Shown: positions 4,716-32,071 of the stretch, in pieces
Numbering within the stretch: position 1 is the first letter of the stretch
How the letters are laid out: every line of letters begins with the position of its first letter
Position numbers and translations under genes: made by a program
Assembly: GCA_029945625.1 (NCBI GenBank)
Contig: JAQSCW010000020.1
Location: forward strand, 1-33,804
Length of the DNA stretch: 33,804 nucleotides
Reading direction: 5' to 3'
Source: a bacterium
GTDB taxonomy: Bacteria > Bacteroidota > Bacteroidia > B-17B0 > Aurantibacillaceae
The notes under the pieces: generated by a model
Database searches by the model: none
What the model was told of the DNA's origin: nothing
Seen by the model: the letters and a program-made list of their open reading frames with translations, nothing else

Positions 4716-5474
4716 TCAACGTTTTTTAATTAAATCTAAAACCCCGTTAATAAAAGTAAGCGGGTGAATTGGATTTCCCGGTACATAGAGGTCTATTTTG
4801 TAGTTGTTCAGAAAACTCCTATCCAGCGCTTTGCTTCCCAAAAAAATTCCGCCACTAATTGCATCGGTACCGGCCAGAATAATGAGCTTTGGATGGGGTA
4901 TGGCATCGTAACAAATTTGCAGGGGTTCGGCCATGTTTTCACTTATTGGTCCGGTAATTACAACACCATCGGCATGGCGCGGTGAAGCCACAAACTCAAT
5001 ACCAAATCTTCCCATATCGAAATTCACATTGCCGCAAGCATTAAGTTCAAGCTCACAACTATTGTCGCCCGCCGCCGACACTTGACGTAATTTCAAAGAA
5101 CCGCCGAAGTATTTATAAATTTCTTCGCGAATCAGAGTCGGATCTAATTTGAATTCTTCATCTATACCTTCTTTTACAATCAGTCCTTCTCGTAAATTAT
5201 GTGCCAGTTTATAGTCTTTCGTAAATCGAATTTTATTGGGAAATGCAAAGGCACATTCCCCACAAAACGTGCATTTACCAAGATCAATACTTATTTTTCC
5301 GCTTGGATCGGTGGCAATAGCATCGGTCGGACAAATCTCCATCAAGCTCTCGGCATCCACCTTGTTTGCACTAATCACCGGTCGGCCGCGGAACACGCCG
5401 GGTACTTCCACCGTTCTCACATCGCGAATAAATTGTTTGCCCTGATGAAGAAGTATGTTGATGTTTTTTAGCAT
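4716..5474 (-). CDS. Ehr-type small subunit: one-cluster ferredoxin domain fused to a NuoB/HyfI-like domain
   Basis: This is a 252-residue fusion of an HyfH-like ferredoxin domain (about 25-100) and an HyfI/NuoB-like domain (about 125-250). The ferredoxin part keeps C48 (ICPTDAI) plus C68, C71 and C74 (CTFCGEC). The first CxxCxxC is absent, and the fourth cysteine of motif two is F78. The remaining four cysteines are exactly those that ligate one of the two clusters in a 2[4Fe-4S] ferredoxin. In the NuoB-like part, GPISENMAEPL and RFGIEFVASPRHAD are classic, but the proximal cluster ligands are mostly gone: only C140 of the first pair remains, the GDCA site reads GTDA (D204), and PGCPP reads PGNPI (N234). 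It is last in the six-gene operon, 12 bp after the large subunit. A normal N2-type cluster is unlikely. Confidence 0.88.
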   Translation of the reverse strand: MLKNINILLHQGKQFIRDVRTVEVPGVFRGRPVISANKVDAESLMEICPTDAIATDPSGKISIDLGKCTFCGECAFAFPNKIRFTKDYKLAHNLREGLIVKEGIDEEFKLDPTLIREEIYKYFGGSLKLRQVSAAGDNSCELELNACGNVNFDMGRFGIEFVASPRHADGVVITGPISENMAEPLQICYDAIPHPKLIILAGTDAISGGIFLGSKALDRSFLNNYKIDLYVPGNPIHPLTFINGVLDLIKKR

Positions 5475-5486
5475 CTGTTTTAATTT

Positions 5487-7004
5487 TTAAAGATCATACC
5501 CGCAATAAGAAAGATCAAAACTTTTATTGCAGATAGGGAAGTCTGAGATTTCATTGTTTCGCACTGCCAGTGCTAATGCCAACCAATTGTGCATGGAGGG
5601 GTCCTTGATTTTATAATGCACTAACTCTCCGTCTTTTCCCGTAATGGCACAGTGACAAATTTCACCCCGCCATCCTTCGGTGAGCGACAAACAGAAACGA
5701 TCGGCTTGTGCTTGTAAGAGCACGCGTTCAGAATCCGGTTGCGCCGCGACTTTTTCAAGTAATTTCCTAATATAAACCAGCGACTGTTTTATCTCCTCAT
5801 GTCGCAACTGCGTGCGCGAATACACATCGCCGTGAATTTTCAAAATAGGTTCGTGACGGAGTTCCGTGTACAAATCATGCGGATGGCTCGCGCGAATATC
5901 TCTTTCAATGCCGCTTGTTTTTGCCGCCATGCCTACGCAACCAATAGAAAGGGCATCGTGCCAACTTACCATTCCCGTTTTTTCGAGACGACTCAACACA
6001 CTTGGCAAGGTGTGAAAACGATCCCATACCTCATCAAAATCGCGTTCATACGCCTCCAGAACTATTTCAAGCCGTTGCGCCAATTCGGGTGTAAACTTAA
6101 AATTAGAATACCCCGGTCTTATCAGTCCTTTTGCCAAACGGTTGCCACACCATTCCTGCATAAAATTGATAAGAGGTGTGCGCAAACGTCCGAACACAGA
6201 GGCTCCCAGCTGATAGGCAATGTCGGTACAAATGGCGCTGAGGTCTCCGGTATGAATGGCAATGCGTTCCAATTCAAGCGCGAGGGTGCGCGCCAACTGC
6301 AAATCGGCTCTCGGCACACATCCCGAGAGACTCTCCCACACATTGGTAAATGCGGTGGCATGTCCAGCCACAGTATCTCCGGCGATAGATTCAGCGAGTG
6401 TCACCCGCTGCAGTAATTTTTTTTTAGTGATCAATAAATTTTCGATTCCTCGGTGCTGATACCCGCAATGAATTTCCAAATGTAAGATCTGTTCCCCATT
6501 GCAGGCAAATCGAAAATGGCCGGGTTCAATAACACCGGCATGAATGGGGCCCACGCCCACTTCGTGAAGTTCTTCGCTCTCGATATGGTAAAACGGATAC
6601 TCCGCTATGCCGCTTTCTTTGTTGAAGCGGTCATGCGCAAACCGCACAGGCTTTAGCCAGGGGTGATCGTGGTAGCGAATTCCGAAATTCTCATGAATTT
6701 CGCGCTCAAAAATATGAAATGACAAATGACGTGCCGTGAAGGAACTGTATTCAGGAAATCCTATTTCATCTAAATGGGGCAAAGGAAGCACGCAGGACGA
6801 AACATAAATGCTGTGTTCGTGATCGTTGGCGATGCAGCAAATTAATTTTAATTTTTCCTTTTGAGCCAATCCATAATAGTTCACACAGTGAAGGTGCTCT
6901 TTGGATAAAAATCCCGTGTTCATCAGCAAAAAACTTTCGTAGTCCAATACGGGGATCTCTTGAAAAAAGATGCTTTGATTATTTTTAACGGTGATATAAC
7001 TCAT
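5487..7004 (-). CDS. Ehr-type large subunit (HyfG/NuoCD-like) lacking NiFe-ligand cysteines
   Basis: This is a 505-residue fusion of NuoC-like (about 1-125; FEREIHENFGIRYHDHPWLKPVR) and NuoD-like parts, as in HycE/HyfG. The NuoD part has PIHAGVIEPGHFRF, LEIHCGYQHRGIE (H184, G186, E188), an RADLQLARTLALELERIAIHTGD segment and EGWRGE near 443. The first NiFe motif, normally CGIC, reads AESIAGDTVAGH (205-215) with no cysteine. The second, normally DPCxxC at the C-terminus, reads FDLSYCG (496-502), so the ligand cysteines are not in register. The protein therefore cannot bind a NiFe centre as hydrogenases do. It could couple quinone or another redox reaction, or act as a structural partner of the pump. 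Loss of the active site is seen directly; the Ehr class assignment rests on family knowledge. Confidence 0.92.
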   Translation of the reverse strand: MSYITVKNNQSIFFQEIPVLDYESFLLMNTGFLSKEHLHCVNYYGLAQKEKLKLICCIANDHEHSIYVSSCVLPLPHLDEIGFPEYSSFTARHLSFHIFEREIHENFGIRYHDHPWLKPVRFAHDRFNKESGIAEYPFYHIESEELHEVGVGPIHAGVIEPGHFRFACNGEQILHLEIHCGYQHRGIENLLITKKKLLQRVTLAESIAGDTVAGHATAFTNVWESLSGCVPRADLQLARTLALELERIAIHTGDLSAICTDIAYQLGASVFGRLRTPLINFMQEWCGNRLAKGLIRPGYSNFKFTPELAQRLEIVLEAYERDFDEVWDRFHTLPSVLSRLEKTGMVSWHDALSIGCVGMAAKTSGIERDIRASHPHDLYTELRHEPILKIHGDVYSRTQLRHEEIKQSLVYIRKLLEKVAAQPDSERVLLQAQADRFCLSLTEGWRGEICHCAITGKDGELVHYKIKDPSMHNWLALALAVRNNEISDFPICNKSFDLSYCGYDL

Positions 7005-7016
7005 TACCTCTACGTT

Positions 7017-8444
7017 CTAATGTGCAATATTGATTAGTGCTCCCTGTAATAGATCAACGAAAACTTGAGGAGGTGCAATTCCTAAATAGATTACAAGGGC
7101 TAATAAAATAAACTGGCTCACCGATTCGAGTGGATTGATCCGAACAATATTTATTTCCTTAAAATGAACCGGCTTTAAGAACAGCATTTTAAATATATTT
7201 TTACCCAGTGCCCAGATGATGAGGGTTAACAAAAACAAAACTAGAATCAGTGTTCCATAGTTGCCATCTTCAAACAAGGCTCGAAAAATCAGGAATTCGC
7301 TGGTGAACATACCCGAGGGCGGCATTCCGGTAACTGTAAAAAAAGCAAACAGCAGCACCATGGCCCCTGATACGTTATATTTAAAATAATTTCCAATATC
7401 GTAAATGCTTTTACTTTGGTACACGCGGTGCACTTGCCCAATTTGAAAGAAAAGAGCGGGTTTTACGAAGGAATGTAATACAATGTGCAGAACTGCAGCA
7501 TAAGGACCTATCCCACCCGAGGCAAGACCAATTACTACCAAAGACATGTGCTCCACGCCCGAATAGGCTAACATGCGTTTGATGTTTTTTACATGAAGCA
7601 TATACACGGTAGCGAAAAATAAAGAGAGAATTCCTGAAATAAGCATAATCTTATTAGCCCAATATACTACAGCGGTATGACTTACAATTTCGTAGATGTG
7701 AAAGATGCCGACAAACCCCACATTTACCAGTACACTGCTAATGAGTGCTCCGGCCGGGGAAGGCGCGTTATCTTTGGCATCGATCCCCGCAGCATACATT
7801 GGCACAAGGCCTAACTTTGAAGTGAAACCGGTAAAAATAAATATGAAGGCCAGCTTTAACCAAAACACATCCAAAAAGGGTGCTTGCGTTATGAGGGTAT
7901 CATAAGAAAGATCGGTAACACCCTTGGCATGCATGGCCATTGAAAGAAACAAAATACCTATAAATACCAGCGTGACACTGATTGAGCAAACGAAAATATA
8001 TTTCCAAGTAGCTTCGAGCGCTTTGGCATGACGCTTGTGAAATACCAGCGCCGAAACGCTCAGCGTGGTCAATTCCACAAAGATCCAGGTAATAACGATG
8101 TGGCTCGAGAGGTAAGCCGCGGTGAGGGACGTCATTAAAACAACCATAGCGGCAAAATAGATATTGCTTTCTTCTGCGCTGTTGTTTCTCCCCTCTAAGA
8201 AAATAATACTATGTATAAATGCCGGAACACACAAAACACTTAAAATGAGCAAAAGAAGAATACTTAAACTGTCCGCTACAAAATATCCCGACTCGCTAAT
8301 GCCCATATGTGAACACTCAACAGTTGTAATGGTGAATTGCAGTACTACGAAAGCACACAGCAGAACATACGTCACCATTTTGTTCCTGTTAAAAAACAAA
8401 GAAGCACTGATCAGGCCCGCGAGTATTAAATATGGAAGGATCAC
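7017..8444 (-). CDS. HyfF/NuoN-like antiporter-type membrane subunit
   Basis: This is a 475-residue protein with about 13-14 hydrophobic segments, a member of the proton-translocating NuoL/M/N and Mrp-antiporter family. The conserved TM5 glutamate is in TWIFVELTTLS (E124) and the TM7 lysine in TGFTSKLGLVPM (K210), followed by DAKDNAPSPAGALIS, the usual SPxSA-type loop. IKRMLAYSGVEHMS (288-301) and HSFVKPALFFQIG match later conserved helices. These charged residues form the proton or sodium channel in complex I, so the pump part of this complex looks intact even though its redox arm is altered. The gene is separated by 20 bp from the HyfE-like gene and 12 bp from the large subunit gene. Confidence 0.9.
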   Translation of the reverse strand: MILPYLILAGLISASLFFNRNKMVTYVLLCAFVVLQFTITTVECSHMGISESGYFVADSLSILLLLILSVLCVPAFIHSIIFLEGRNNSAEESNIYFAAMVVLMTSLTAAYLSSHIVITWIFVELTTLSVSALVFHKRHAKALEATWKYIFVCSISVTLVFIGILFLSMAMHAKGVTDLSYDTLITQAPFLDVFWLKLAFIFIFTGFTSKLGLVPMYAAGIDAKDNAPSPAGALISSVLVNVGFVGIFHIYEIVSHTAVVYWANKIMLISGILSLFFATVYMLHVKNIKRMLAYSGVEHMSLVVIGLASGGIGPYAAVLHIVLHSFVKPALFFQIGQVHRVYQSKSIYDIGNYFKYNVSGAMVLLFAFFTVTGMPPSGMFTSEFLIFRALFEDGNYGTLILVLFLLTLIIWALGKNIFKMLFLKPVHFKEINIVRINPLESVSQFILLALVIYLGIAPPQVFVDLLQGALINIAH

Positions 8445-8464
8445 AAGTTTATCGTCTCTGTTTT

Positions 8465-9094
8465 TTAGTCTTTTAACTTCCTTAATTGATCAATATCGTG
8501 GCCCTGCAAAATCTCACCAATTTTATTGGCGAAAACGCCAAGCAAAACAACGCTCACAAAAATATCGAGTAGAATTCCGGTGTTTAAGAGCATAGGCATT
8601 TCACTTCCCACTGCCAGTGAGAGAATAAAAACACCGTTTTCAATGACCAAGTAACCCATCACATGCGTGATGATGTTTTTGCGTGTAATTATAATGTATA
8701 AGCCGGTAAATAATGCCGACACGGCCACAATAAAAAATAGTTTGTTGATATGATCATCGTGAATAGCTTGTGAAAGAGTAAATGAAATCAATATGATCAC
8801 GGTAACAATTACAATAGAAAGGAAATTGGGAACAAACGGTTCTGTTTCACGCGTGATGTTGTTCTTTTTTACCACGTAGGTCAAAAAAGCAGGAAGTATG
8901 ATTGTTTTGAAGATAATGGTTTCGAGCAAAATAAAAAGGAGGTTGGTGAAATCGAGTTTAATTAATTCGATAAATGCCACTCCAAACAAAATGATTCCCT
9001 GGAACGCGAGAATGTTAATAAAACTGTTGAGCCTATTGGTGATGGCAATGTACAGCAAACTGATCAGAAATAATATAAGTAAAATTGCGGTCAT
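8465..9094 (-). CDS. HyfE-like membrane subunit
   Basis: This is a 209-residue protein with about six hydrophobic segments. The segment LLETIIFKTIILPAFLTYVV (E58, K63) is the hallmark of HyfE/MbhG-type subunits, and the C-terminal part, ITHVMGYLVIENGVFILSL, resembles NuoK with its membrane glutamate. Such subunits bridge NuoH and the antiporter-like subunits in group 4 hydrogenases and Ehr complexes. It starts 6 bp after the NuoH-like gene and precedes the NuoN-like gene by 20 bp, in the same order as hyfC-E-F in E. coli, except that a hyfD counterpart is absent. Confidence 0.88.
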   Translation of the reverse strand: MTAILLILFLISLLYIAITNRLNSFINILAFQGIILFGVAFIELIKLDFTNLLFILLETIIFKTIILPAFLTYVVKKNNITRETEPFVPNFLSIVIVTVIILISFTLSQAIHDDHINKLFFIVAVSALFTGLYIIITRKNIITHVMGYLVIENGVFILSLAVGSEMPMLLNTGILLDIFVSVVLLGVFANKIGEILQGHDIDQLRKLKD

Positions 9095-9100
9095 CGTGTA

Positions 9101-10021
9101 TCAGGTTATTTTTCCCAGTAATAATAATGCGCCTAAAAATATCAACAATGAAATGGAGGTGAGTACAAAAATAAATTGAGGATTGTGGCTCATTCTGAAA
9201 CGTGCCATAAACGATTCGATGGTACCGGCACTAATCGCAAACACCACTTGAATAAATAGCATGAAAGGAATTGCCAGATAAATGGGTATAGAGGGGCTCA
9301 AAAAAAGATCGGCTATAAGTGCGCCATACATGGCAAATTTGAGATTGGTGGTGTAGAGGATCATTCCCAGATCGAAGCCGCTATTGTCGAGGATGATTAC
9401 TTCGTGCATCATGGTAAGTTCCAAATGTGTTTTGGGATCATCAATAGGCATTCTGCTGTTCTCAATCATGGCAATGGCCACCAACACAAGTGCGGCAAGT
9501 GCCACTACGGCCTGCTCAACATGCGACCCCATTCCCATATACAGAGTGCTAAAGATCTGATGAAAAGAGGTGTGACCGGTGAGCAACGAAAGGGACCCAA
9601 TAAGAATAAAAAAGGCGGGTTCAGCCAACATCGAAAAAAGGCCTTCCCTACTGGCACCCATGCCTTCAAAACTGCTGCCGGTATCAAGTGCTGAAATAAT
9701 AGTAAAAAATTTACCCAGAGCAAGGAGGTAAGCAAAAAAAACGAAATCTCCACTAAAGGAGATTAACCCGGGTTGATCGCCAAAGGGCACCAAAAGAGCC
9801 GACAAAAATACCGTGGCGAAATAAATACTTGGAGCAATTTGAAAAATAAAACTGGTAGTTTCGCTGGTCACCGCCCCCTTCTTCAGCAAACGCCAAATGT
9901 CCTTTAAGGGTTGAAACACCCCCGGCCCTTTTCTACCCGAAAAGAAACTCTTAGTACGGATGAGAATGCCCGTGAAGAACAGACTCGTAAAAATAATAAG
10001 AATAATACTTATTCCCTGCAT
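9101..10021 (-). CDS. HyfC/NuoH-like membrane subunit
   Basis: This is a 306-residue protein with about eight transmembrane segments. It has the cytoplasmic loop GRKGPGVFQPLKDIWRLLKK (29-48), ALDTGSSFEGMGASRE (111-126) and AMIENSRMPIDDPKTHLELTMMHE (184-207), all close to NuoH and HycD/HyfC consensus. In complex I this subunit links the quinone or active-site chamber to the proton channels, and its charged loops are preserved here. It begins 1 bp after the HyfB-like gene, so translation is probably coupled. Confidence 0.9.
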   Translation of the reverse strand: MQGISIILIIFTSLFFTGILIRTKSFFSGRKGPGVFQPLKDIWRLLKKGAVTSETTSFIFQIAPSIYFATVFLSALLVPFGDQPGLISFSGDFVFFAYLLALGKFFTIISALDTGSSFEGMGASREGLFSMLAEPAFFILIGSLSLLTGHTSFHQIFSTLYMGMGSHVEQAVVALAALVLVAIAMIENSRMPIDDPKTHLELTMMHEVIILDNSGFDLGMILYTTNLKFAMYGALIADLFLSPSIPIYLAIPFMLFIQVVFAISAGTIESFMARFRMSHNPQFIFVLTSISLLIFLGALLLLGKIT

Positions 10022-10022
10022 G

Positions 10023-12044
10023 CTAAATGTGTTGAAATAGTTTAACCATATAATGCACCAGATCCATGGTAAGTGGAATCATGATGGCAATGAAAATAAA
10101 CACCACCCCATATAAAATATACAATTGCATATTCCCGTTTTGAAGAAATCTGAATTTGGACATAAAACCTTTGAGGAGTTTTAAGGGAAGATCGATAAAC
10201 AAAGCCTCCACTTTATCATAAGGATGTGTGTGCGAGTGAACAGCATTTGGGAAAACTCCTTTGAGTTCATTTTCTTTTTTATTCATGATCAGCATGGGGT
10301 GCACCAATTTACGGTACGAACGCACAAATGAATTTGCCGTGTATTGTAGTTTGGGTGTGGGTGCAATATACCCGCAACCCCAGGTGGGTCCGAAATCTTT
10401 TATGCTCTTGCGGGTAATCAGCTTCCTGATTCCCAACACAAGTAAAACCAGGGCCACAAGCGCCCAGGCGGCAAAACTCACTTGCTGCATTACTCCCGTA
10501 AAATCGTCGAGACCCGAAAAGGGATCAGCCGTGTTTACAAAAAGTTGAAGCGGACGAGTCAGCAGCCGCATAAACAGTTGCGGAACTAACCCAATAAGCA
10601 GAATCACAAGCACTACCATGTATTTTGGAAATAACTTCGAAAGTTCAGCTTCTTTGATCGGGTGTTCGTAAGGGTGCCGTTCGCTTCCCAAAAAAATGAT
10701 TCCAAACGCTTTGGTGAAACACAGCATGGCAAGACCACCAATGAGCACTAAACCAAAAATGGAAAGAATAAAAATGATGGCAGAACTCAATTGGCCTGAT
10801 TGAATGCCGCTAAATAAACCTGAGTAAAGTAGAAACTCTGAAATAAATCCGTTAAAAGGCGGTAAGCCGCAAATGGCCAAGGCCGCAATTAAAAATAAAA
10901 TGGCTGTTTGTGGCATTTTCTTAATGAGTCCGCCCAAACGTTCAATCTCCATGGTGTGGGTAGCCTGATACACAGTGCCTGCACAATAAAAAAGCAGAGA
11001 TTTAAAAAGTGAATGATTTAAGGTGTGCAACAAAGCTCCGGCAAAGCCTGCCAAAGCCAGATACGAATTGTCGGTTGCTTTACCAATGCACCCAAGGCCG
11101 ATGCCCATCCCAATGATACCAATGTTTTCGATGCTGTGATAGGCAAGGAGTTTTTTGACGTTATGCTGTATGATGGCCAGCATCACGCCGTAAACTCCCG
11201 TAACCGCCGAAAGAATCAGAATCAAATAGCCCAACACTAAATAATTGCCATCTATGAGTATCAGCATTCGCAGAATTCCAAAGATTCCAAGCTTAATGAT
11301 AACGCCCGACATGATGCCGGAAACGTGAGAAGGAGAAGCAGGATGCGCATAAGGTAACCAAGTGTGAAAAGGCACAAACCCCGCTTTGATCGCAAAGGTG
11401 ATAAAAAAACAAGCAAAGAGTAAAAGTGCAGCAGGTGCGCTTGCTGATTTGCTATATGAACCAATTGCATTAAAATCAAAGGAGCCGGTATGGCTGTACA
11501 CAATGATGAATCCCAACATTAAAAACACAATACCAATGTGTGATTGGATCAAATAATTAATACCGGCCTTAACGATCTCAATATTCCGATGTTCGAAGAT
11601 GATTAGCAGGAAAGAGGCAATGGCCATAAGTTCCCACACACATAAAAAGGCTAATCCGTTTTGAACAACATAAATACCAAGCATGGCAACATGTATAACA
11701 ATGAAACTTGAGAAATGTAAAGAGAGATTTGCCTTTTGTTCCTGATAGGCCTTCATGTATCGAATCCCATATAAAATTCCTGTGATCATGGTGAAATTCA
11801 TTAACAGAATGAACCAGGCCGAGAGCGCATCCATACGAATCGGAATTTCACCAAACACACGTCCGCCATAATAAAGCTTCTCAACTACTTCGCCCTGCAG
11901 CACCGCAATGGCCACCACCGAACTAATGCCGGCGTTGATCAACACGGCCAAGAGGGCAACATAACCTTTGAGTTTGCCTGGCACCGTCGCGCAGAGTGCA
12001 ACAAATAAAAGTGTGGTAACTATGAGACCAATACTTAAGTTCAA
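10023..12044 (-). CDS. HyfB/NuoL-like antiporter-type membrane subunit
   Basis: This is a 673-residue protein and the first gene of the operon. It has about 16 hydrophobic segments of the NuoL/MrpA family. The TM5 glutamate lies in FLCVWELMAIAS (E138), the TM7 lysine in FAIKAGFVPFHTWLPYAHP (K220), with SPSHVSGIMSGV and K251 in the next helix. A long C-terminal extension follows residue ~530, with a soluble stretch containing a Trp/Pro/Cys-rich segment (GPTWGCGYIAP) and a final membrane helix, as in HyfB/HycC. There is 185 bp to the CBS gene upstream, containing that gene's terminator (12137-12176) and a small dyad (12083-12097), so the operon is likely transcribed from its own promoter just upstream of 12044. 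Confidence 0.9.
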   Translation of the reverse strand: MNLSIGLIVTTLLFVALCATVPGKLKGYVALLAVLINAGISSVVAIAVLQGEVVEKLYYGGRVFGEIPIRMDALSAWFILLMNFTMITGILYGIRYMKAYQEQKANLSLHFSSFIVIHVAMLGIYVVQNGLAFLCVWELMAIASFLLIIFEHRNIEIVKAGINYLIQSHIGIVFLMLGFIIVYSHTGSFDFNAIGSYSKSASAPAALLLFACFFITFAIKAGFVPFHTWLPYAHPASPSHVSGIMSGVIIKLGIFGILRMLILIDGNYLVLGYLILILSAVTGVYGVMLAIIQHNVKKLLAYHSIENIGIIGMGIGLGCIGKATDNSYLALAGFAGALLHTLNHSLFKSLLFYCAGTVYQATHTMEIERLGGLIKKMPQTAILFLIAALAICGLPPFNGFISEFLLYSGLFSGIQSGQLSSAIIFILSIFGLVLIGGLAMLCFTKAFGIIFLGSERHPYEHPIKEAELSKLFPKYMVVLVILLIGLVPQLFMRLLTRPLQLFVNTADPFSGLDDFTGVMQQVSFAAWALVALVLLVLGIRKLITRKSIKDFGPTWGCGYIAPTPKLQYTANSFVRSYRKLVHPMLIMNKKENELKGVFPNAVHSHTHPYDKVEALFIDLPLKLLKGFMSKFRFLQNGNMQLYILYGVVFIFIAIMIPLTMDLVHYMVKLFQHI

Positions 12045-12082
12045 GAAAGTGAATTTAAACGTGAAAAATCAGGACACAGAAT

Positions 12083-12097
12083 GTTGAAACAATCAAC
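12083..12097. promoter_or_regulatory. Inverted repeat upstream of the Ehr-like operon
   Basis: GTTGA-AACAA-TCAAC is a perfect 5-bp inverted repeat, 39 bp before the first start codon of the operon. It resembles a Crp/Fnr-type site, but the spacing is one base shorter than the TTGAT-N4-ATCAA standard. It may be an operator or chance. Confidence 0.3.
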
Positions 12098-12136
12098 ACG
12101 GCACTTTCATAGTTTTTGGTGCTATAAATATAGTAT

Positions 12137-12176
12137 AAAAAAATACCCCCCACCAAAAGTTTTTTTGATCGGGGGT
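12137..12176 (-). terminator. Rho-independent terminator of the CBS gene
   Basis: On the minus strand ACCCCC (12176-12171) pairs with GGGGGT (12150-12145), followed by A and seven T (to 12137). It lies 54 bp after the CBS-protein stop and separates that gene from the downstream complex operon. Confidence 0.75.
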
Positions 12177-12229
12177 CATTTTAAATGATTAATTGAATTA
12201 AGTGCCGAAGCAAGGGGCAAAAGGCGCCT

Positions 12230-12661
12230 TTATCTTTGAATATAATCTTGTAAATTGTCGATAATGTATTTTTGTTCTTCGATGATAAACTTCACCAGAT
12301 CCCCGATGGACACAACGCCGATTAATTCTTTTTTATCAAGCACGGGCAAATACCTTACACCACCGGTCATTTTGGCCAAACAATCGTTAATACTGTCTTC
12401 TGAAGTAATGGTAATAGGTTTTGATTCCATGATCTCACCCACTGTAATTTCTTTGGAGGACCTTCCCTTCACAATAACTTTCCGCGTATAATCCCGTTCG
12501 GTAAACATGCCTTCAAATTTACCGTCTTTAAGCACGAGCAGTGCTCCCAGATTTTTATCCACCATCATTTTAATGGCATCGTACACCAACATGTCGGGAC
12601 TCACGGTAAAGAGCGTTTTGCTCTTTTGCTGGAGAAGATGTTTCACTTGCTTGGTAATCAT
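12230..12661 (-). CDS. CBS-domain pair protein
   Basis: This is a 143-residue protein made of two CBS motifs: about 18-62 (VSPDMLVYDAIKMMVDKNLGALLV, then GKFEGMFTERDY) and about 78-128 (ESKPITITSEDSINDCLAKM, then GVRYLPVLDKKELIGVVSIGDLV). CBS pairs bind adenine nucleotides and act as energy sensors. There is no attached effector domain, so it would work on a partner. It has a strong AGGAGG (12667-12672) five bases before the ATG, unusual for a Bacteroidota gene and supporting this start. It sits between the Ehr-like operon (same strand, separate terminator) and the sulfur genes (opposite strand), so it may report adenylate state to either. That link is inference. Confidence 0.9.
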   Translation of the reverse strand: MITKQVKHLLQQKSKTLFTVSPDMLVYDAIKMMVDKNLGALLVLKDGKFEGMFTERDYTRKVIVKGRSSKEITVGEIMESKPITITSEDSINDCLAKMTGGVRYLPVLDKKELIGVVSIGDLVKFIIEEQKYIIDNLQDYIQR

Positions 12662-13045
12662 TTTATCCTCCTTTATTTTATTTAATTGTTTAATCTAAGT
12701 TAATGAATAATTTAAGCTTTAACAAGAATTGCCAAAATTTAGTGTTCTTTGTTGCCGTGAGGGTCTTTTTCCGTTTCAGGATTTAGGAGCTTTAACTACC
12801 AATTCGGTAATTCAATCGACCAAATTCGGATTTTCTTCGTCGAAAATGGCGTTTTTTGACTTCTGCGAACCCCGCCAATGTCAGTTATCATGGTCATTTG
12901 GGTAAAGAAACAGGTCTGCTTTGGCAGAAAGAACACGTATTCTTGAAAAGTTCAAGTTCATCCGGGGCAAAGCTTTCACATTTAAAAAGAGCACAACGAA
13001 GGTCGATTTTAAAGCAACAAATGTTACACAAGGTGCGGATTTAGT

Positions 13046-13059
13046 GTGATTCATATCAA
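13046..13059. promoter_or_regulatory. Crp/Fnr-type box candidate upstream of the SQR operon
   Basis: GTGAT-TCAT-ATCAA matches the TTGAT-N4-ATCAA pattern in nine of ten defined positions. It lies 87 bp upstream of the SQR-like start codon and about 45 bp before the -7 candidate, where an activator could sit. No regulator of this family is encoded in the window. Confidence 0.4.
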
Positions 13060-13103
13060 GAGTAAACCTGACTCCCATCATCCGAAGTGCCGTGTACCCC
13101 CCG

Positions 13104-13111
13104 TAGATTTG
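13104..13111 (+). promoter_or_regulatory. Candidate -7 box (TAnnTTTG) of the SQR operon
   Basis: TAGATTTG fits the Bacteroidota -7 consensus and would leave a leader of about 30 nt before the ATG at 13147. A clear -33 TTTG is not present, which fits an activator-dependent promoter but also weakens the call. Confidence 0.35.
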
Positions 13112-13146
13112 TTCCGTAAAATCGTAACAGTTAAAAACAAAAAATC

Positions 13147-14394
13147 ATGAAACAATTGCTAATACTAGGCGCAGGGACAGCGGGAACCATGATGGCCAAT
13201 CACCTGAACCACGAACTTGACAAAAAAGACTGGAAAATCACCATTGTTGACGAACGCACGAAACATTATTATCAACCCGGCTATTTATTTCTGCCCTTTG
13301 ATATTTACGAACCAAGTGACATTGTAAAAGAGATAGAGGAATTTATTCCAAAAGGAGTAAACCTATTAAAAAGTAAGATCGATCGGATCCTTCCAAAAGA
13401 AAACTCGGTGCGTTTAGAAGACGGTAAAGAACTTCATTATGACCTGTTGATCATCGCCACGGGTGCCCGTATTGCTCCCGAAGAAACGCCGGGCATGCAG
13501 GATGAAGAGTGGCACAAGAGTATTTTCGATTTTTATACCTACGAAGGCGCCTTGGCCTTGAGAAACAAATTACGCAACTGGGAAGGTGGCAAACTAGTGG
13601 TGCACATCACCGAAATGCCGATAAAATGTCCGGTTGCGCCTCTGGAATTTGCATTTTTGGCAGACTCCTATTTTAAACATAAAAAAATGCGCGATAAAGT
13701 GGAGATCGTGTATGTTACCCCCTTGAGTGGTGCATTTACCAAGCCTAAAGCCACTGCCGCACTGGATCATTTGCTACATGATAAGAACATACACATTGAA
13801 ACCGACTTTGCGATTGAGAGTATTGACTATGCAAAAAATGCGCTGGTAGATTATTCGGGAAGGGAAGTTTCATACGACCTTTTGGTGACCGTACCAACTA
13901 ATAAAGGAGACGACCTAATTGCGCGTTCGGAAATGGGAGACGAACTTAATTATGTGCCTACCAACAAAGCCACACTGCAGTCGCAAGCACATCAAAATAT
14001 TTTTGTGCTTGGCGACGCATCCAATATTCCCGCTTCCAAAGCCGGCTCAGTAGCTCACTTTGAAGCCGAAATTCTTACTGAGAACATTCTGCGGTTTATA
14101 AAAGGAGAGCCTCTTAAGGCCGATTTCGACGGACACGCCAATTGTTTTATTGAAACAGGAAATGGTAAAGCCCTTTTGATTGATTTCAATTATACACACG
14201 AACCCGTAGAAGGCACCTTTCCATTCCCCGGAATTGGTCCTCTGAGATTATTAAAAGAAAGTCGCATTAATCACATGGGTAAACTGGCCTTCCGCTGGAT
14301 TTACTGGAACATGTTATTAAAAGGCACCCACATTCCTTTTGTATCAACAAGCATGCAGGAGTCGGGGAAACATTATGAAGAAGTAGAAAATTAA
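13147..14394 (+). CDS. sqr: Sulfide:quinone oxidoreductase-like FAD flavoprotein
   Basis: This is a 415-residue protein of the pyridine nucleotide-disulfide/SQR superfamily. It starts with the FAD-binding GAGTAGTMMANHL (8-20), has the second glycine/ATG motif LLIIATGARIAPEETPG, and FVLGDASNIPASKAGSVAHFEAE (287-309) near the flavin. The protein has just two cysteines, C161 (IKCPVAP) and C333 (ANCFIETGNGKALLIDFNY). They correspond to the pair that cycles sulfur in SQR; the third cysteine of classical type I enzymes is absent. The C-terminal region (WIYWNMLLKG) may be the membrane-contacting helix. SQR oxidises sulfide to zero-valent sulfur or persulfide and reduces quinone at the inner membrane. 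It is the first gene of an operon with TusE/DsrC-like and DsrE-like proteins, 24 bp before the next gene. Confidence 0.88.
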   Translation: MKQLLILGAGTAGTMMANHLNHELDKKDWKITIVDERTKHYYQPGYLFLPFDIYEPSDIVKEIEEFIPKGVNLLKSKIDRILPKENSVRLEDGKELHYDLLIIATGARIAPEETPGMQDEEWHKSIFDFYTYEGALALRNKLRNWEGGKLVVHITEMPIKCPVAPLEFAFLADSYFKHKKMRDKVEIVYVTPLSGAFTKPKATAALDHLLHDKNIHIETDFAIESIDYAKNALVDYSGREVSYDLLVTVPTNKGDDLIARSEMGDELNYVPTNKATLQSQAHQNIFVLGDASNIPASKAGSVAHFEAEILTENILRFIKGEPLKADFDGHANCFIETGNGKALLIDFNYTHEPVEGTFPFPGIGPLRLLKESRINHMGKLAFRWIYWNMLLKGTHIPFVSTSMQESGKHYEEVEN

Positions 14395-14418
14395 TTGTTT
14401 AACTAAATATATAACATC

Positions 14419-14733
14419 ATGACACAAACAAAAATGATCGGCAACAAAGCGATCACCGTAAACGAAGAAGGTTACCTAGTAGATTTTTCTCATTGGGACA
14501 AACAAGTGGCAGAAACCATTGCCAAAGAAGTGAATATCGACCTTAGCCAAAGACATTGGGAGGTGCTTAATTTTCTGCAAGACCAGCACAAAAAAGAAGT
14601 AGCCCTTAATATCCGCAAAGTAGGAAGTAGCGGGGTGGTGAGTATCAAAGAATTTTATACACTCTTTCCGCAGGGACCTTTAAAAACAGCAACAAAAATA
14701 GCCGGCATTCCAAAACCTGCCAGTTGTATTTAA
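14419..14733 (+). CDS. tusE: TusE/DsrC-family sulfur carrier with one C-terminal cysteine
   Basis: This is a 104-residue protein of the DsrC/TusE/gamma-subunit family: GYLVDFSHWDKQVAETIA (19-36), LSQRHWEVLNFLQ (42-54) and a flexible C-terminal arm GPLKTATKIAGIPKPASCI. The penultimate cysteine C103, the sulfur-accepting residue, is kept. The second cysteine found in true DsrC (the C of xGCKIAG) is T92 here. A one-cysteine form matches TusE-like carriers that relay persulfide rather than DsrC, which makes a trisulfide with DsrAB. No dsrAB is in the window. Its position after SQR and before a DsrE-type protein suggests it takes persulfide sulfur from that pathway. Confidence 0.88.
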   Translation: MTQTKMIGNKAITVNEEGYLVDFSHWDKQVAETIAKEVNIDLSQRHWEVLNFLQDQHKKEVALNIRKVGSSGVVSIKEFYTLFPQGPLKTATKIAGIPKPASCI

Positions 14734-14755
14734 TGTATCACGTAAAAACAATGTT

Positions 14756-15238
14756 ATGAACGAAGTAGATGGTGATGTAAAAAAAATGATGATTATTCTG
14801 TCCAAAGCCACCTTGGACAATGTATACGCAGCCTTTATACTTGCTAATGGAGCAAGATCAGAAGGCATTGAAGCCGAAATGTTTTTTACTTTCTTTGGAT
14901 TGGAAGCAGTGCACAAGAAAAAACTGGAACATTTGCACGTAGCAACGGTTGGGAATCCGGCCATGCACATACCTACCATGTTGGGAGGATTTCCCGGAAT
15001 GGAAGCTATGGCTACTACCATGATGAAAAAGGAAATGGAAAAGATAGATATTCCACCGGTACATGAATTCCTGGATATTCTTTCGGCATCAGGTGTAAAA
15101 CTCTGGGCCTGCCGATTGGCGATGGATATGTTTCACTATAAAAAGGAAGATCTCTACGAAGGACTTGATGATGTACTTACCGTAGGCGGATTTTACGAAC
15201 GTGCAAAAGGCGTAGGTACGCATATGCTGTTTATTTAA
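14756..15238 (+). CDS. DsrE/DsrF-like (DsrE2-type) sulfurtransferase
   Basis: This is a 160-residue protein with the DsrE fold: MMIILSKATLDNVYAAFILANGA (11-33), a strand AEMFFTFFGLEAV, a Met-rich membrane-proximal loop (GGFPGMEAMATTMMKKEM, 77-94), and KLWACRLAMDMF where C119 is the sole cysteine. DsrE2-type proteins bind sulfur on this cysteine and pass it to TusA/TusE-like carriers. It is the third and last gene of the SQR operon, 22 bp after the TusE-like gene. DsrE here is a single short protein, not the DsrEFH heterohexamer, so I infer a sulfane-sulfur trafficking role in the cytoplasm or at the membrane. Confidence 0.88.
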   Translation: MNEVDGDVKKMMIILSKATLDNVYAAFILANGARSEGIEAEMFFTFFGLEAVHKKKLEHLHVATVGNPAMHIPTMLGGFPGMEAMATTMMKKEMEKIDIPPVHEFLDILSASGVKLWACRLAMDMFHYKKEDLYEGLDDVLTVGGFYERAKGVGTHMLFI

Positions 15239-16908: not shown

Positions 16909-19900
16909 TCAAACCCTCTCCAGTTGCAATTCGGGGGAATAAACTGATCGGGAACTCTTGCCAATTTCTCTGTCGTGGTACTCTTTCACCTGAAACATAA
17001 AGGCTTGGAGTCTAGTCTCAATCGATGCATCTTCTTGCCCATCGTACGTATAATCTACCCAAGGAATATTGTTATGATCTTTGCGAAACACATCCGAAAC
17101 GGAACAGATTAAGGTGCCCGGCATGCAGGTAAATGGCAGCACATTGCAGACTCCTGCTACTCCCTTTTTACCTAAGGCTGAGGCAGAGCCAATCGCCATC
17201 ACCGGATCCCCATCATAATCGCGGTGAACATAGGGGGAAGATAAATCGAGCATGGTTTCCAAAGAAATCTCCTTGTCGGCGTCCACCAATTCTTCTACCG
17301 ACCGAAACAGTTTTTTGTAGGAAGCGTGCTGAGCATATTCCTGTATTTTTGATTTTATTACCCCAAGGTAATCTTTTTTCCATTTACTGTCACGATTATA
17401 CCTGTATGTCGAATACACAAACCACTCCGAAAATGGCGCCATCAACGTTTCAGCCCCCAATGCTTCGAGTCGTTTCACAATGTTGCCACTGCAAAACTTA
17501 TTATCTCGCATAAAAATCTCTCCAACTACCGCTACAACAGGCTTACGTGGAATGTTTAAGATTTGGATGGACTTGAATTGTTTTCCGCAATCTTCCAAAA
17601 TGCTGCCCAGGTTCTTTGTGTTGTTTTCAACACTTTGCACTAAGCGGTTTAGAGATTCGAGATACACCTTTTCGGTATCTCCTTTTATTTTTTCATAAGG
17701 TGTGTATTGTTGTTGGAGTTTTCGGATAAGATCAAACGCCACAAATCCTTTCCATACATTCATTCTGAATTTAGAACCGTTACCGGGAGTAATATCAGAA
17801 TACGAACCATCGTTAGAAGGCGTTACGATCTTTACTTCTTTCAAATTCAAGCGATCAAAAATGATTTTCTGTAATTGATTGTACATACCGAATCTGCATG
17901 GCCCATTGTGATCGGGCATAAAAAAGCTGACCTTCTTTGGATCTACTCCGGGTTCCTGTAACTTCTTGATAAAAGAACCCGTGGTGCAAATCATGGGAAA
18001 ACATTCTTTAGCGGAGGTGTACTTTCTGCCGAGTTCCAAGTCTTCGTTAGTTTGCAGGGGTAAGGCATATGATTCTATTCCACAACTACGCGCTGCGGCA
18101 GCGGCAATGTACGAACCGTCATGCATATACGGCCAATACAATACTCTGTCCTTGGTAGGTGTTGCCTGTTTGTAGTTCTTTGAAATATGTCGTTTCACCG
18201 CACTCTGCTTTCTTCCTTTTTTACGAACACTATCGAGAAATGCTTCCAGACGTGTAATCAAACCGGCATCGGCCGAATGTTCATCAATCTCAATTTGGAT
18301 GGAAGGTTTTCCTTTTAACACTTCCGTCACAAAGTGCGAAATAAAAGAATCGGGTCCGCAGCGGAAATTGCCGGTATACACGCCATACATGTTTTCGGTT
18401 CGTGCAATGATCTTTGCGCCGGCCAGTATTTTTCTTCCTCCTGGCCAATACATATTTGGAAAGTCTTCAAAAATATTTTCTTCGGCCAACGGGAGAAAAT
18501 CTAATGGAAATGGGAGCACATTCAGGTGAATGAGTTTTTCAACTAATCTTAGATTCAGTTCGGGATCTCCGGTATTATAAGTGCGCCCCAAAATCACAGC
18601 CACTTCTCGGCCTTCCGGCAATGAGGTAAGAATCTCGTTGCCTCTTACTACGAGCGATTTTTCAAAATTGAGCTGTTTTTCTTGTGCCAGATAAAGTGCT
18701 TTTTTTACTGCTTTTCCGGGCGTACCAAATGTCTGTTTCATAAAATCAGCCATTTCCTTTATGAATACATCATCAAAATAGCGAGGATGTAAGGAAGGAC
18801 TCAAGAGTTTTTCCTTTCCCGGATGAGAGTCCAATGCTGCTTTTACCATAAACGGATACAACTGAATCCAGGGACAATTGCAATTGGAAGTAGGATTGTC
18901 GACCGCTTTTTTGGCATTTACAATAAAGGGTGTAAATACATAATCTACATTTTTAGTGAGGAGATCCACAATGTGCCCATGCACACATTCAATGGGCAAA
19001 CAGGTTTCGGAATTTAAGATGGAAAGCGATTTAGAAATGAGTGCCCTGTCGGTATGTTTAGAAAGCACGACCTGAAATCCGAGTTCGGTAAAAAAAGTTC
19101 TCCAAAATGGAAATTCCTGATAATACAACAGCAATTCTCTTGGAATGCCAATGCTGATGCTGCCTTTATTGGTTTCTTCCAAATAGTCGCCCAACAGCAG
19201 TCGCTCTCTTTCTTCAAATAAATTAGGAATGTCATCCACGGTATTTTTGCGATCCGACATTTCGTATTTTTCACATCGGCCTCCGTAGCAAAATGGTTTT
19301 TTTTCCCCTTTCACTTTCACCATTCTGATCTCACATAAGTCATGACAATCTTTATCCTTGCAGGTGAATTTTTCCAAACTAAACGAGGCGTTCCGCACAT
19401 CGAATCCTTTGAATTTTGTTTTGCCCGTTTCCTCAAATTTTTCTCGTGCTAAAATAGCCATGCCAATTGCTCCGGTAACGTCAAAATTGGGTGGAATGAT
19501 AATTGGTTTTCCTGTAATTTGTTCAAATGCGGCCACAACGCCTTTATTATTGGCCACACCGCCCTGAAAGAAAATTTTATTCCCCACTTTTCTACTGCCC
19601 ACTACGCGCTGGATATAATTATTCACGATCGAATACGCTAGTCCGCCCACGAGGTTCGAATTTTTTTCACCTCGTTGTTGGTTGGCGTTAAGATCTGATT
19701 CAATAAACACGGTGCAGCGACAACCAAGCGGCGTGGGCTTTTCAGAACCTAAGGCCAATGTGCCAAACTCTTCCACAATATTGATATCGAGTTTCTCGGC
19801 TTGCTCTTCCAAAAATGAACCGGTTCCGGCAGCGCACACTTTGTTCATATCAAAATCAACCACCACCCCATTTTCGATGCTGATAAATTTGGAATCCTGA

Positions 19901-21204
19901 CCCCCAATTTCAAAAATGGTATCCACAGTAGGATCGTGCGCAATGGCCGCGGTGGCCTGTGCCGTGATTTCATTCTGAATCACATCAGCCCCTATAAAAT
20001 CGCCTGTAAGGTAACGTCCCGAACCCGTTGTTCCTGCAGCTTTGATGTCTACTTTCGCACCCACCTCATCGTATATTTCCTGCAATCCCCTTTTAATGGC
20101 ATCAAGGGGCCGACTTGCTGTGGGTAAATATTTTCTTGCGATGACATTATTAAATTCATCAATCAACACCACGTTGGTACTCAACGAACCTACATCAATT
20201 CCAAGATAAACCGGATACTGTTCGTGACCATTCAAATTAAATCTCACTTTGGTATCAATTACTGCGGCCGATTCTTTCAACATCGGAAGTCCTTCACTGT
20301 TGCCATTGGCCTGCAACAAATAACTTTCGAGCTCACTTGTGCCTTTAAAAGGAACGGAGATCTCGGGATTTTCGCGCACATAATAAATCGCCCCCAAAGC
20401 CCCCATCGATGCGTGGTATTGAGGGATGATGAGTTCCCCCTCTTTCAAATTCAATATTTCCATAAAGGCATGCACCACTCCTGCATTAGCCGCTACCCCA
20501 CCCTGAAACACAATGGGCTTAATTAATTCTTTGCCCCTGGCGAGGTTGCTTTTAAAATTTCGCGCCACCGCAAAACACAATCCTGCCACAATATCGTGAA
20601 CGGGTGTGGCAATTTGTTGGAGATGGATCATATCACTTTTCGCAAATACACTGCAGCGCCCTGCAATATGTGGCGGTTTTGCCGATTGCATAGCCAAGGC
20701 ACCAAATTCGTTTTCAATAGATACACCAATTCGTTTGGCCTGCTGATCGAGAAAGGAACCCGTTCCGGCGGCGCAAATGCTGTTCATGTTGAAGTCTGAC
20801 AAACTCGAGCTGTCGGCGCCTTCCGTTTTATTCATAAAAATGAGTTTCGAATCTTCTCCACCCATTTCAATAATTGTTTTTGCTTGGGGATATAATTTTG
20901 AAACGGATTTTGATTGCGCAATGATCTCGTTGATGAATTGTCCGCCAATTAATTCAGTCGCCAATTTTCCACCTGTACCGGTGATGGCCACCAATTTAAA
21001 TTGTTCGGGCTCATAACGTGTGAGTAAATCACTCAGCCGCTTTCGCAACATCAGAAAGGGCTGTCCATGGCAGTGATCGTAAAAGTTTTCTAGGATATTT
21101 TCGTTATTGTCGAGAATAACGGTGTTTAGTGAAATAGAACCTAAATCCAGACCAAGATAGATGCTATCTTTTGGAGTGGTATGATTTTCGTTTGCTGTTT
21201 TCAT
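16909..21204 (-). CDS. Giant acyl-CoA dehydratase activase-type protein (two ASKHA modules + DUF2229 + dehydratase-like)
   Basis: This is a 1431-residue protein. It has two BadF/HgdC-type ATPase modules: residues about 14-275 (YLGLDLGSISLNTV; CAAGTGSFLDQQ; GRCSVFAKSD) and about 331-590 (YLGIDVGSLSTNVV; CAAGTGSFLEEQ; CRCTVFIESD). Each keeps the two cysteines that share a [4Fe-4S] cluster at the dimer interface (C144/C184 and C457/C497). A cysteine-rich linker (C615, C620, C624, C639, C644) follows, then a DUF2229-type region from about 684 (IGIPRELLLYYQEFPFWRTFF) and a C-terminal part like the 2-hydroxyacyl-CoA dehydratase B/C component. Such proteins use ATP to fire low-potential electrons. 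The substrate here is unknown. The gene stands alone, with an inverted repeat (21238-21253) 34 bp before its start. Confidence 0.9.
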   Translation of the reverse strand: MKTANENHTTPKDSIYLGLDLGSISLNTVILDNNENILENFYDHCHGQPFLMLRKRLSDLLTRYEPEQFKLVAITGTGGKLATELIGGQFINEIIAQSKSVSKLYPQAKTIIEMGGEDSKLIFMNKTEGADSSSLSDFNMNSICAAGTGSFLDQQAKRIGVSIENEFGALAMQSAKPPHIAGRCSVFAKSDMIHLQQIATPVHDIVAGLCFAVARNFKSNLARGKELIKPIVFQGGVAANAGVVHAFMEILNLKEGELIIPQYHASMGALGAIYYVRENPEISVPFKGTSELESYLLQANGNSEGLPMLKESAAVIDTKVRFNLNGHEQYPVYLGIDVGSLSTNVVLIDEFNNVIARKYLPTASRPLDAIKRGLQEIYDEVGAKVDIKAAGTTGSGRYLTGDFIGADVIQNEITAQATAAIAHDPTVDTIFEIGGQDSKFISIENGVVVDFDMNKVCAAGTGSFLEEQAEKLDINIVEEFGTLALGSEKPTPLGCRCTVFIESDLNANQQRGEKNSNLVGGLAYSIVNNYIQRVVGSRKVGNKIFFQGGVANNKGVVAAFEQITGKPIIIPPNFDVTGAIGMAILAREKFEETGKTKFKGFDVRNASFSLEKFTCKDKDCHDLCEIRMVKVKGEKKPFCYGGRCEKYEMSDRKNTVDDIPNLFEERERLLLGDYLEETNKGSISIGIPRELLLYYQEFPFWRTFFTELGFQVVLSKHTDRALISKSLSILNSETCLPIECVHGHIVDLLTKNVDYVFTPFIVNAKKAVDNPTSNCNCPWIQLYPFMVKAALDSHPGKEKLLSPSLHPRYFDDVFIKEMADFMKQTFGTPGKAVKKALYLAQEKQLNFEKSLVVRGNEILTSLPEGREVAVILGRTYNTGDPELNLRLVEKLIHLNVLPFPLDFLPLAEENIFEDFPNMYWPGGRKILAGAKIIARTENMYGVYTGNFRCGPDSFISHFVTEVLKGKPSIQIEIDEHSADAGLITRLEAFLDSVRKKGRKQSAVKRHISKNYKQATPTKDRVLYWPYMHDGSYIAAAAARSCGIESYALPLQTNEDLELGRKYTSAKECFPMICTTGSFIKKLQEPGVDPKKVSFFMPDHNGPCRFGMYNQLQKIIFDRLNLKEVKIVTPSNDGSYSDITPGNGSKFRMNVWKGFVAFDLIRKLQQQYTPYEKIKGDTEKVYLESLNRLVQSVENNTKNLGSILEDCGKQFKSIQILNIPRKPVVAVVGEIFMRDNKFCSGNIVKRLEALGAETLMAPFSEWFVYSTYRYNRDSKWKKDYLGVIKSKIQEYAQHASYKKLFRSVEELVDADKEISLETMLDLSSPYVHRDYDGDPVMAIGSASALGKKGVAGVCNVLPFTCMPGTLICSVSDVFRKDHNNIPWVDYTYDGQEDASIETRLQAFMFQVKEYHDREIGKSSRSVYSPELQLERV

Positions 21205-21237
21205 ACCACAAAATGAAGTATATTTTTTTTGGGGAGA

Positions 21238-21253
21238 TATGACCTATGTCATA
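21238..21253. promoter_or_regulatory. Inverted repeat upstream of the activase gene
   Basis: TATGAC-CTAT-GTCATA is a perfect 6-bp inverted repeat with a 4-nt gap, centred about 41 bp before the start at 21204. The geometry (N4 spacer) is like Crp/Fnr-family sites. An oxygen- or redox-responsive regulator would fit a low-potential ATP-dependent iron-sulfur enzyme, but this is inference. Confidence 0.4.
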
Positions 21254-21455
21254 AGCGGAACACGTTATGTGAAATCAAAGATACCGATTCAGCGTTAGTG
21301 TTAATATGGAGCTGCAACATACCCTAAAGAGGGTACTTATATTTATTTAAATTGACAGTTTTGACTCTAAGCTTGAAAGAATAGTAAATCAATAATAATC
21401 GGATCATACTATTAAGATGTCCTAGAAAGAAAGGGCGTACAAAGCCCCGGGGAAA

Positions 21456-22118
21456 TCAATTTTTATCCCTGTTCTTCTTTTCTCGGCGAATAATTTTTTT
21501 TCGCACGTCACCCATTAAAATAATCGCGGCTTTTCGATAAGCCTGTGCTATTCTGCTACTTTGACGAAAGGTGAAATCAGACCAAATATGACTCAAAGCA
21601 TACTTCACCACGTACTTTACTATTTCCCCTCCCTCATAATCAGTAAATGTACATTCAGCTTCTACGACCGCCACCTTTTGGAAAAAAATATTACTATTCC
21701 CGGGATAAAGCCACAAGGTTTTAACCAAAAGGTTGACCTCGGCGCCGCTCCCATCATTAACTCCAACCATGCCAATTGAATTTGCTGTGCTGTTAAAGTA
21801 CTTTTCGAAGGCAGGCTCATAAAATTTTTTACGTGCATCAAACCACTTGCTTCTAATCTTATCTCCCTTTTTCGAATTGTTGGCATACTTTCCCAATTTC
21901 CTTTGAAGATATTCCTCTTCGGTCTCATTTTCTTCAACAATCATTCCCGAATAATCGTATGTAATGCTAAAATGTTTCTTACCCTGTAAGGCAAGAGGAT
22001 CACCCGAAATAATCTCGGCATGAGGCCATACGTATTCCTTCTTTTGACCTATTGAAAAGTTGGAAAACAACAAAAATAGAAAGCCCAGAAGAATGGAATT
22101 TAATTGCAGTACTTTCAT
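21456..22118 (-). CDS. Exported protein of unknown function
   Basis: This is a 220-residue protein with signal peptide (LNSILLGFLFLLFSNFSIGQ, about 6-25). The mature part has conserved-looking segments KHFSITYDYSGMIVEENETEEEYLQRKL and WLYPGNSNIFFQKVAVVEAECTFTDYEGG, then a basic tail (RKKIIRREKKNRDKN). It resembles envelope proteins frequent in Bacteroidota that predict a beta-rich domain, but I do not recognise the family with confidence. It is a single gene between the activase and a non-coding region. Confidence 0.65.
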   Translation of the reverse strand: MKVLQLNSILLGFLFLLFSNFSIGQKKEYVWPHAEIISGDPLALQGKKHFSITYDYSGMIVEENETEEEYLQRKLGKYANNSKKGDKIRSKWFDARKKFYEPAFEKYFNSTANSIGMVGVNDGSGAEVNLLVKTLWLYPGNSNIFFQKVAVVEAECTFTDYEGGEIVKYVVKYALSHIWSDFTFRQSSRIAQAYRKAAIILMGDVRKKIIRREKKNRDKN

Positions 22119-32062: not shown

Positions 32063-32071
32063 CCTAATCAA

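Follow-up and report, generated by a model that had tools for sequence, protein, structure and literature searches.

An operon for a complex I-like membrane complex

The DNA analysed here (the window, 33,804 nucleotides, contig JAQSCW010000020.1 of assembly GCA_029945625.1, phylum Bacteroidota) carries an operon for a complex resembling hydrogenase-4 and complex I. Six co-directional open reading frames (ORFs) lie on the minus strand from 12044 to 4716 in the order B-C-E-F-G-HI, separated by 1 to 20 bases, and their Pfam domains are, in gene order, Proton_antipo_M, NADHdh, Oxidored_q2, Proton_antipo_M, 49 kDa plus 30 kDa, and Oxidored_q6 plus Fer4. A six-gene operon of the hyf type had been described from the letters of the DNA (the sequence-only reading), and the ORFs, Pfam matches and alignment bear out its coordinates and motifs.

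The membrane arm is encoded by four of these genes, all read from the minus strand. ORF B (10023-12044, TTG start) encodes a HyfB/NuoL-M-like antiporter subunit of 673 residues (PF00361, 4.7e-55), which matched the NCBIfam model of hydrogenase 4 subunit B at 2e-145, under the cut-off of that model. It is followed by C (9101-10021), a HyfC/NuoH-like connector subunit (PF00146, 7.2e-31), and by E (8465-9094), a HyfE-like (NuoK-like) subunit (PF00420, 4.7e-6) whose match to the NCBIfam hydrogenase 4 membrane subunit (1.5e-20) is likewise under the cut-off. A HyfF/NuoM-N-like antiporter subunit is encoded by F (7017-8444, GTG start; PF00361, 9e-36). The peripheral arm consists of the large subunit G (5487-7004, minus strand), in which 30 kDa and 49 kDa domains are fused (PF00346, 3.8e-30; PF00329, 8.4e-5), and of HI (4716-5474, minus strand), a fusion of a ferredoxin with a NuoB-type small subunit (PF01058, 9.4e-19; PF00037, 1.4e-4).

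Loss of cofactor ligands in the large and small subunits

The lineage represented by this operon has, by alignment, dropped the [NiFe] ligands, the ligands of the proximal N2-type cluster and, in most members, one of two ferredoxin clusters. The comparison was based on 94 HI proteins, namely that of the window, those of 11 loci from a sample of 296 genomes of the phylum, those of two near relatives and those of the 80 best loci from a wider scan. Eighty-three of them, the window included, are without the cluster cysteines and are referred to as noC, and the other 11 are termed CCCC sisters. Because the 80 loci were selected by similarity to the window, using patterns that allowed only C or N at HI position 234 (or a second pattern), 83 of 94 should not be taken for a prevalence, and the conservation of N234 is partly conditioned.

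Ehr is reportedly the name of the energy-converting hydrogenase-related complexes (Coppi 2005, Marreiros 2013). When G was aligned with HycE, HyfG, NuoD and six proteobacterial Ehr sequences, residues 208-215 were found to read AGDTVAGH (6360-6383, minus strand) in place of the CGxC motif of the [NiFe] site, and residues 497-504 to read DLSYCGYD (5493-5516, minus strand) in place of DPCxxC. The E. coli HycE/HyfG counterparts are CGICGFAH and DPCYSCTD, in agreement with the motif replacements already noted in the sequence-only reading. The substituted residues are themselves conserved among noC rows of G (D210 in 69/69, S499 and D504 in 73/73). The G proteins of 11 other genomes in the phylum sample (identity of at least 39%) all show GD[T/S] and (D/N)LSYxGxD, without CGxC and without DPCxxC, so that chance or sequencing error is excluded. 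HypD was not found in the source genome by a search that was positive in 4 of 14 genomes as a control. Since the ligands are absent and the genome lacks a detectable HypD, the complex is not a [NiFe] hydrogenase, as had been claimed from the motifs; the same two observations rule out a [NiFe] enzyme with shifted ligands. The window G also reads A208-G209 where the Nuo rows have EY, DY or NY, and the tyrosine of this pair, which we take to be the quinone-site tyrosine, is therefore absent. Two further 49 kDa subunits are encoded elsewhere in the source genome (contigs C10 and C52).

While the loss of the [NiFe] ligands had been recognized in the sequence-only reading, the changes in HI had been missed: three of the four cysteines that ligate the proximal (N2-type) [4Fe-4S] cluster, the final relay of complex I, have been lost, and so has one ferredoxin cluster. 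With the register set by alignment to MbhJ (PDB), residues 137-140, DNSC (5055-5066, minus strand), replace the CxGC motif; D204 (4863-4865, minus strand; GTD for GAC) and N234 (4773-4775, minus strand; GNP for GCP) replace the third and fourth cysteines, each in 81/83 noC proteins, and both positions are Cys in 11/11 sisters. The four positions read DCDN in 63 noC proteins, DADN in six, DTDN in three, DSDN and DGDN in two each, and are of single types in seven. D137 is found in 80 and S139 in 79 of the 83, and position 140 drifts (C in 64/83). All four cysteines are present in E. coli HycG and HyfI, in three more hydrogenases and in six proteobacterial Ehr proteins, and eleven Nuo rows have Cys at the last three positions, the vicinal Cys being seen in eight of them. 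No report of proximal-cluster loss in Ehr was found by searches of the open PMC literature, which does not prove that it is unpublished.

It might be supposed that a cluster is still held at the N2 position by Asp, Ser, Asn and sometimes Cys ligands. This is very unlikely in our judgement. D, S and N are conserved at or beside the old ligand positions, and non-cysteine ligation is known from P. furiosus ferredoxin. However, the sole remaining cysteine, C140, is absent in 19/83, and we know of no precedent for a [4Fe-4S] cluster wholly without cysteine. A further case is the sulfane sulfur reductase MBS, whose proximal cluster is short of one Cys ligand, having three, and is argued to be catalytic in a passage of PMC7684303.

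One ferredoxin-type cluster survives, with ligands C48 (5331-5333, minus strand) and C68-x2-C71-x2-C74 (5253-5273, minus strand), all present in 83/83. The second is incomplete in 79/83 noC proteins; it is complete in four (L092, L110, L112 and L129; L numbers denote loci) and in 8/11 CCCC proteins, and N2 was therefore probably lost earlier than this cluster. From excerpts of a review of NDUFS8 (Cys126 as an N6a ligand) and a 34-residue presequence of that protein, the surviving cluster would be of the N6b type nearest N2, although a table in PMC8357420 could be read the opposite way. The order of electron passage given in a part of PMC6616624 is N6a, N6b, N2.

Phylogeny, distribution and purifying selection

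The sequence relationships place the complex within the complex I/group 4 hydrogenase superfamily as an Ehr-type member, its subclade being mainly of Bacteroidota. A large-subunit tree (IQ-TREE, 51 rows, motif columns removed, 18 of the 73 noC rows used) separated 35 Ehr-type rows (joined at 100/99) from HycE/HyfG and from Nuo. Within these 35 the 18 noC rows formed a single clade (89/84; recovered in 92% of bootstrap trees), whose sister group was a pair of CCCC proteins that includes one from Candidatus Kapaibacterium (join 100/99). In a small-subunit tree of 116 rows and few columns, 100 Ehr-type rows also grouped (SH-aLRT, an approximate likelihood-ratio test, 93). The family had earlier been proposed as Ehr from general knowledge, and both trees agree with this, the large and small subunits falling outside the [NiFe] and Nuo clades. 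The ligands of the proximal cluster form no part of the definition of Ehr in the literature consulted. Excerpts of PMC4378227 and PMC10284858 describe Ehr complexes as devoid of [NiFe] motifs and of unknown function, in line with the earlier remark that their substrate is unassigned, and a passage of PMC7304191 states that Ehr of the candidate phyla radiation is probably unable to interact with H2.

In the phylum sample, which is less biased than the set of 94 loci, 12/296 genomes (the source and the 11 others) had a G match at the above identity, and the six-gene set was present in all 11 others. Two of the 12 carriers are noC (the source and L035) and ten are CCCC, so the noC form is uncommon (2/296). 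A scan of a GTDB-based collection gave at least 531 confirmed relatives; the best 80 of these are mostly Bacteroidota metagenome-assembled genomes, with three records of named isolates (Chryseolinea serpens and two Arcticibacter), and loci titled Spirochaetes, Phycisphaerae and Brocadiaceae are possibly misbinned. The core genes were all recognized in 49/94 loci, many loci being interrupted by contig ends.

Variants of the gene arrangement were also seen. Tandem pairs of B genes occur at 26 of the 56 loci that could be decided, 23 of them noC (e.g. L052, L055, L058, L061), while the window has a single B. A Variovorax plasmid (L131) bears a pair of Ehr operons separated by a few genes (6731-14015 and 17427-24611), one with a fused HI like that of the window, and a Brocadiaceae contig (L100) has an extra G-HI pair, with a short HI, upstream of a complete operon.

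The charged residues of the pump are retained. In F, E124 (8073-8075, minus strand) and K210 (7815-7817, minus strand) are found in 58/58 noC rows; in B, where second copies are included in the rows, E138 (11631-11633, minus strand), K220 (11385-11387, minus strand) and K251 are found in 68/68 and E403 in 67/68. D113, R125, E126, E134, E187, R190, D194, E201 and E207 of C are all present in 53/53, and K63, E152 and D177 of E in 56/56. The retention of E124/K210 and E138/K220 that had been reported for the window thus extends across the noC relatives, and disrupted pump subunits did not occur among them, the channel residues being near-invariant.

The peripheral subunits are likewise constrained. 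Nonsynonymous divergence (dN) of HI from three relatives was 0.175, 0.217 and 0.199, as against 0.211-0.528 for the other subunits; HI was lowest of the six each time, tied with C (0.218) in the comparison with L050, and synonymous divergence (dS) was saturated in 16 of the 18 gene comparisons. AlphaFold modelled HI with a pLDDT (predicted local distance difference test) of 93.1 and G with 89.7, residues 153-161, 181-183 and 501-505 of G being below 50. The HI model superposed on HycG (7z0t_G) with a VIA-align Z of 17.8 and 1.8 A over 136 residues (HI 115-252), its ferredoxin half being scarcely covered by structure matches, and the best Foldseek match of G was HycE (7z0s_E; TMq 0.87, rmsd 3.8). 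The predicted folds are thus preserved.

A functionless, decaying relic is extremely improbable, although such a relic would explain the stepwise loss of cofactor ligands and the patchy occurrence: HI matches (E of at most 1e-25) were found in 3/120 nearest relatives, source included, the two others being of the same class and a different genus and both without the cluster cysteines. Against it stand the purifying selection, the invariant channel residues and the conservation of the replacement residues across many families. Sequencing error or a pseudogene is ruled out by purifying selection and by the loss of cluster ligands in 83 proteins. This is a selected lineage, neither decay nor sequencing error.

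Neighbouring genes, candidate modes of coupling and known systems

When the genes of the 94 loci were clustered against each other, no neighbour was common to the whole noC clade, most neighbours being unannotated. Apart from the core genes, SulP formed the most widespread cluster, found in 11 loci, of which 10 have it beside the operon (L036, L042, L043, L044, L095, L099, L106, L113, L128, L129) and one ~7.7 kb off (L103). The adjacent cases comprise 5/11 sisters and 5/83 noC loci; the gene is downstream in seven, upstream in two and between G and HI in L044, where it is a SulP, STAS and PTS-EIIA fusion (L044:6939-9140). A cluster of regulators with helix-turn-helix and PTS-EIIA_2 domains lies immediately upstream in seven CCCC loci, of which only L037:4900-5571 was domain-checked.

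Within the window, a CBS-domain protein (12230-12661, minus strand) is encoded ~185 bases upstream of the operon on the same strand, with no clustered counterpart in the 93 other loci. Divergent from the operon and ~1.1 kb past its first gene is a row (13147-15238, plus strand) of a pyridine-nucleotide-disulphide flavoprotein (flavocytochrome c sulfide dehydrogenase-like), a DsrC-like and a DsrE2-like gene. Further off are a BadF/BadG ATPase plus DUF2229 protein of 1431 residues (16909-21204, minus strand), a LysR-type regulator (24841-25776, minus strand) near an SbtA-type Na+/bicarbonate transporter (26234-27202, plus strand; PF05982, 1.2e-113), an Ice-binding-like protein (27367-28311, minus strand) and a Fic/DOC-family protein (32021-33610, plus strand).

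Some of these neighbours bear on the idea that the cavity between G and HI is a hydratase or anion site (for CO2/HCO3- or another oxyanion) coupled to ion movement, as in DAB or the CO2-uptake NDH-1, which we regard as quite unlikely. The SulP genes of sister and noC operons fit it, as do a weak carbonic-anhydrase match, below cut-off, after SulP in L095, and the SbtA gene 14 kb from the operon. SulP transporters, however, have diverse substrates, and no carbonic-anhydrase or DabA-type domain was matched by Pfam in the six operon proteins, nor a DabA-type subunit in the neighbours scanned. SbtA was rejected as a functional partner: it is present in 2/14 operon genomes as against 70/296 of the phylum sample (12 of the 14 belong to both sets), and the sequences flanking the operon at the other 93 loci yielded no homologue at E 1e-10. 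A cluster of HyfBCEFG genes adjoining a beta-carbonic anhydrase is described for A. caldus in part of PMC3826726, also in favour of such a site.

A ferredoxin-driven pump with a shortened wire is rather unlikely but deserves more weight. Electrons would pass from the surviving cluster to an organic or metal cofactor in the D/S/D/N pocket, whose reduction would drive pumping in the manner of other Ehr complexes. The invariance of the surviving cluster, the four noC members that keep both ferredoxin clusters and the POR-type enzymes of the source genome are in its favour, as are the Ehr links to formate cited below. It has to bridge the gap left by N2, which is normally spanned by a cluster, and to account for the 79/83 noC proteins in which the second ferredoxin cluster is not complete; moreover, among the largely unannotated neighbours SulP is the only family that recurs beside noC operons.

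We tentatively favour a complex that moves ions without electron transfer at the quinone or [NiFe] site, in which a polar pocket runs the coupling, possibly in bicarbonate or pH homeostasis; that translocation is driven by the binding of a ligand or proton, and not by the arrival of electrons, seems plausible to a like degree, though short of probable. The wire would have been taken down from the active-site end, NiFe going before N2 and N2 before one ferredoxin cluster. Electrons would then be unable to reach the interface of large and small subunits by the usual route, so that redox chemistry there would not drive the membrane arm. The cavity would be lined by D137, S139, D204 and N234 of HI and D210, S499 and D504 of G, and its protonation, or a cation or small anion bound within it, may replace N2 and substrate reduction in shifting the NuoH-type loops together with the charge axis. 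On this view the complex could be an Mrp-like H+/Na+ exchanger that draws its power from a ligand or an ion gradient, while the lone cluster would serve as a structural staple or redox switch. A role in pH, Na+ or inorganic-anion homeostasis is a guess prompted by the SulP genes next to sister operons. In favour of this reading are the exchange of cluster ligands for a conserved polar set, the single noC clade of the large-subunit tree, the invariant surviving cluster, the near-invariant pump residues, the low dN of HI, the preserved folds, the missing HypD and the SulP genes adjacent to the operon in 10/94 loci.

Several observations count against such electron-free coupling. The invariance of the lone cluster (83/83) is as compatible with a redox role as with a structural one, and three POR_N hits in the source genome indicate that low-potential ferredoxin is probably made there. 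The cavity appears to be lined as stated on the basis of homology, and two G loops (153-161 and 501-505) are of low confidence in the model. The small-subunit tree required two changes of the noC label and not one (28.9 in shuffles). SulP is not adjacent in the window or in most noC loci; Pfam identified it in 4/10 adjacent loci (L044, L095, L099, L129) and clustering in the remaining six. The 10 adjacent cases do exceed the ~0.9 predicted for a distance of 5 kb from the SulP content of the source genome, four genes in 4.12 Mb (Poisson 5e-8), but this figure is uncorrected for phylogeny, contig ends or the gene density of other genomes. Redox links of other Ehr complexes are also on record: in Geobacter, Ehr subunits reached a higher abundance with formate than under conditions that included hydrogen (passage of PMC7894505), and a complex of formate dehydrogenase (FDH) with Ehr was proposed for other phyla (excerpt of PMC6349859).

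A central open question of complex I is how redox chemistry at the quinone or NiFe site is coupled to distant ion movement in the membrane. A lineage with the coupling apparatus and without the redox centre would be evolution's own uncoupling experiment, and could reveal which part of the mechanism needs no electrons. The question is testable in named carriers, e.g. Chryseolinea serpens and Arcticibacter. If the electron-free reading is true, a complex I-type machine is present across many Bacteroidota families and is powered in a manner so far undescribed.

Among known systems, hydrogenase-4 and formate hydrogenlyase (HyfBCEFGHI, HycE/HycG) share gene order and folds with the window operon, which differs in lacking the [NiFe] site, the proximal cluster and HyfA/HyfD, and in the fusion of ferredoxin and NuoB domains. 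Complex I has the same connector and antiporter modules and NuoB/NuoCD folds, but the window operon is without N-module genes, the vicinal-Cys N2 site and the tyrosine to which a quinone-site role was assigned above; in a small-subunit profile comparison, MbhJ and HycG ranked above Nuo chains. The Mrp antiporter is proposed here as an analogy, since it exchanges ions by means of the same membrane subunit family, as the noC complex may; according to part of PMC7684303 Mrp is without a peripheral arm, whereas the arm of the noC complex is retained and conserved. MBS is also short of some [NiFe] ligands; its catalyst is the proximal [4Fe-4S] cluster (same source, in part), the ligands of which are gone in the noC clade. 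Ehr complexes agree with the window complex in their group-4-like subunits, the lack of [NiFe] ligands, the GD(T/S/A) and (D/N)xSYxGxD signatures and the branch occupied in both trees, but the 17 sampled outside the clade (six proteobacterial, ten of the same phylum and one from Kapaibacterium) retain the four cluster cysteines that the noC clade has lost.

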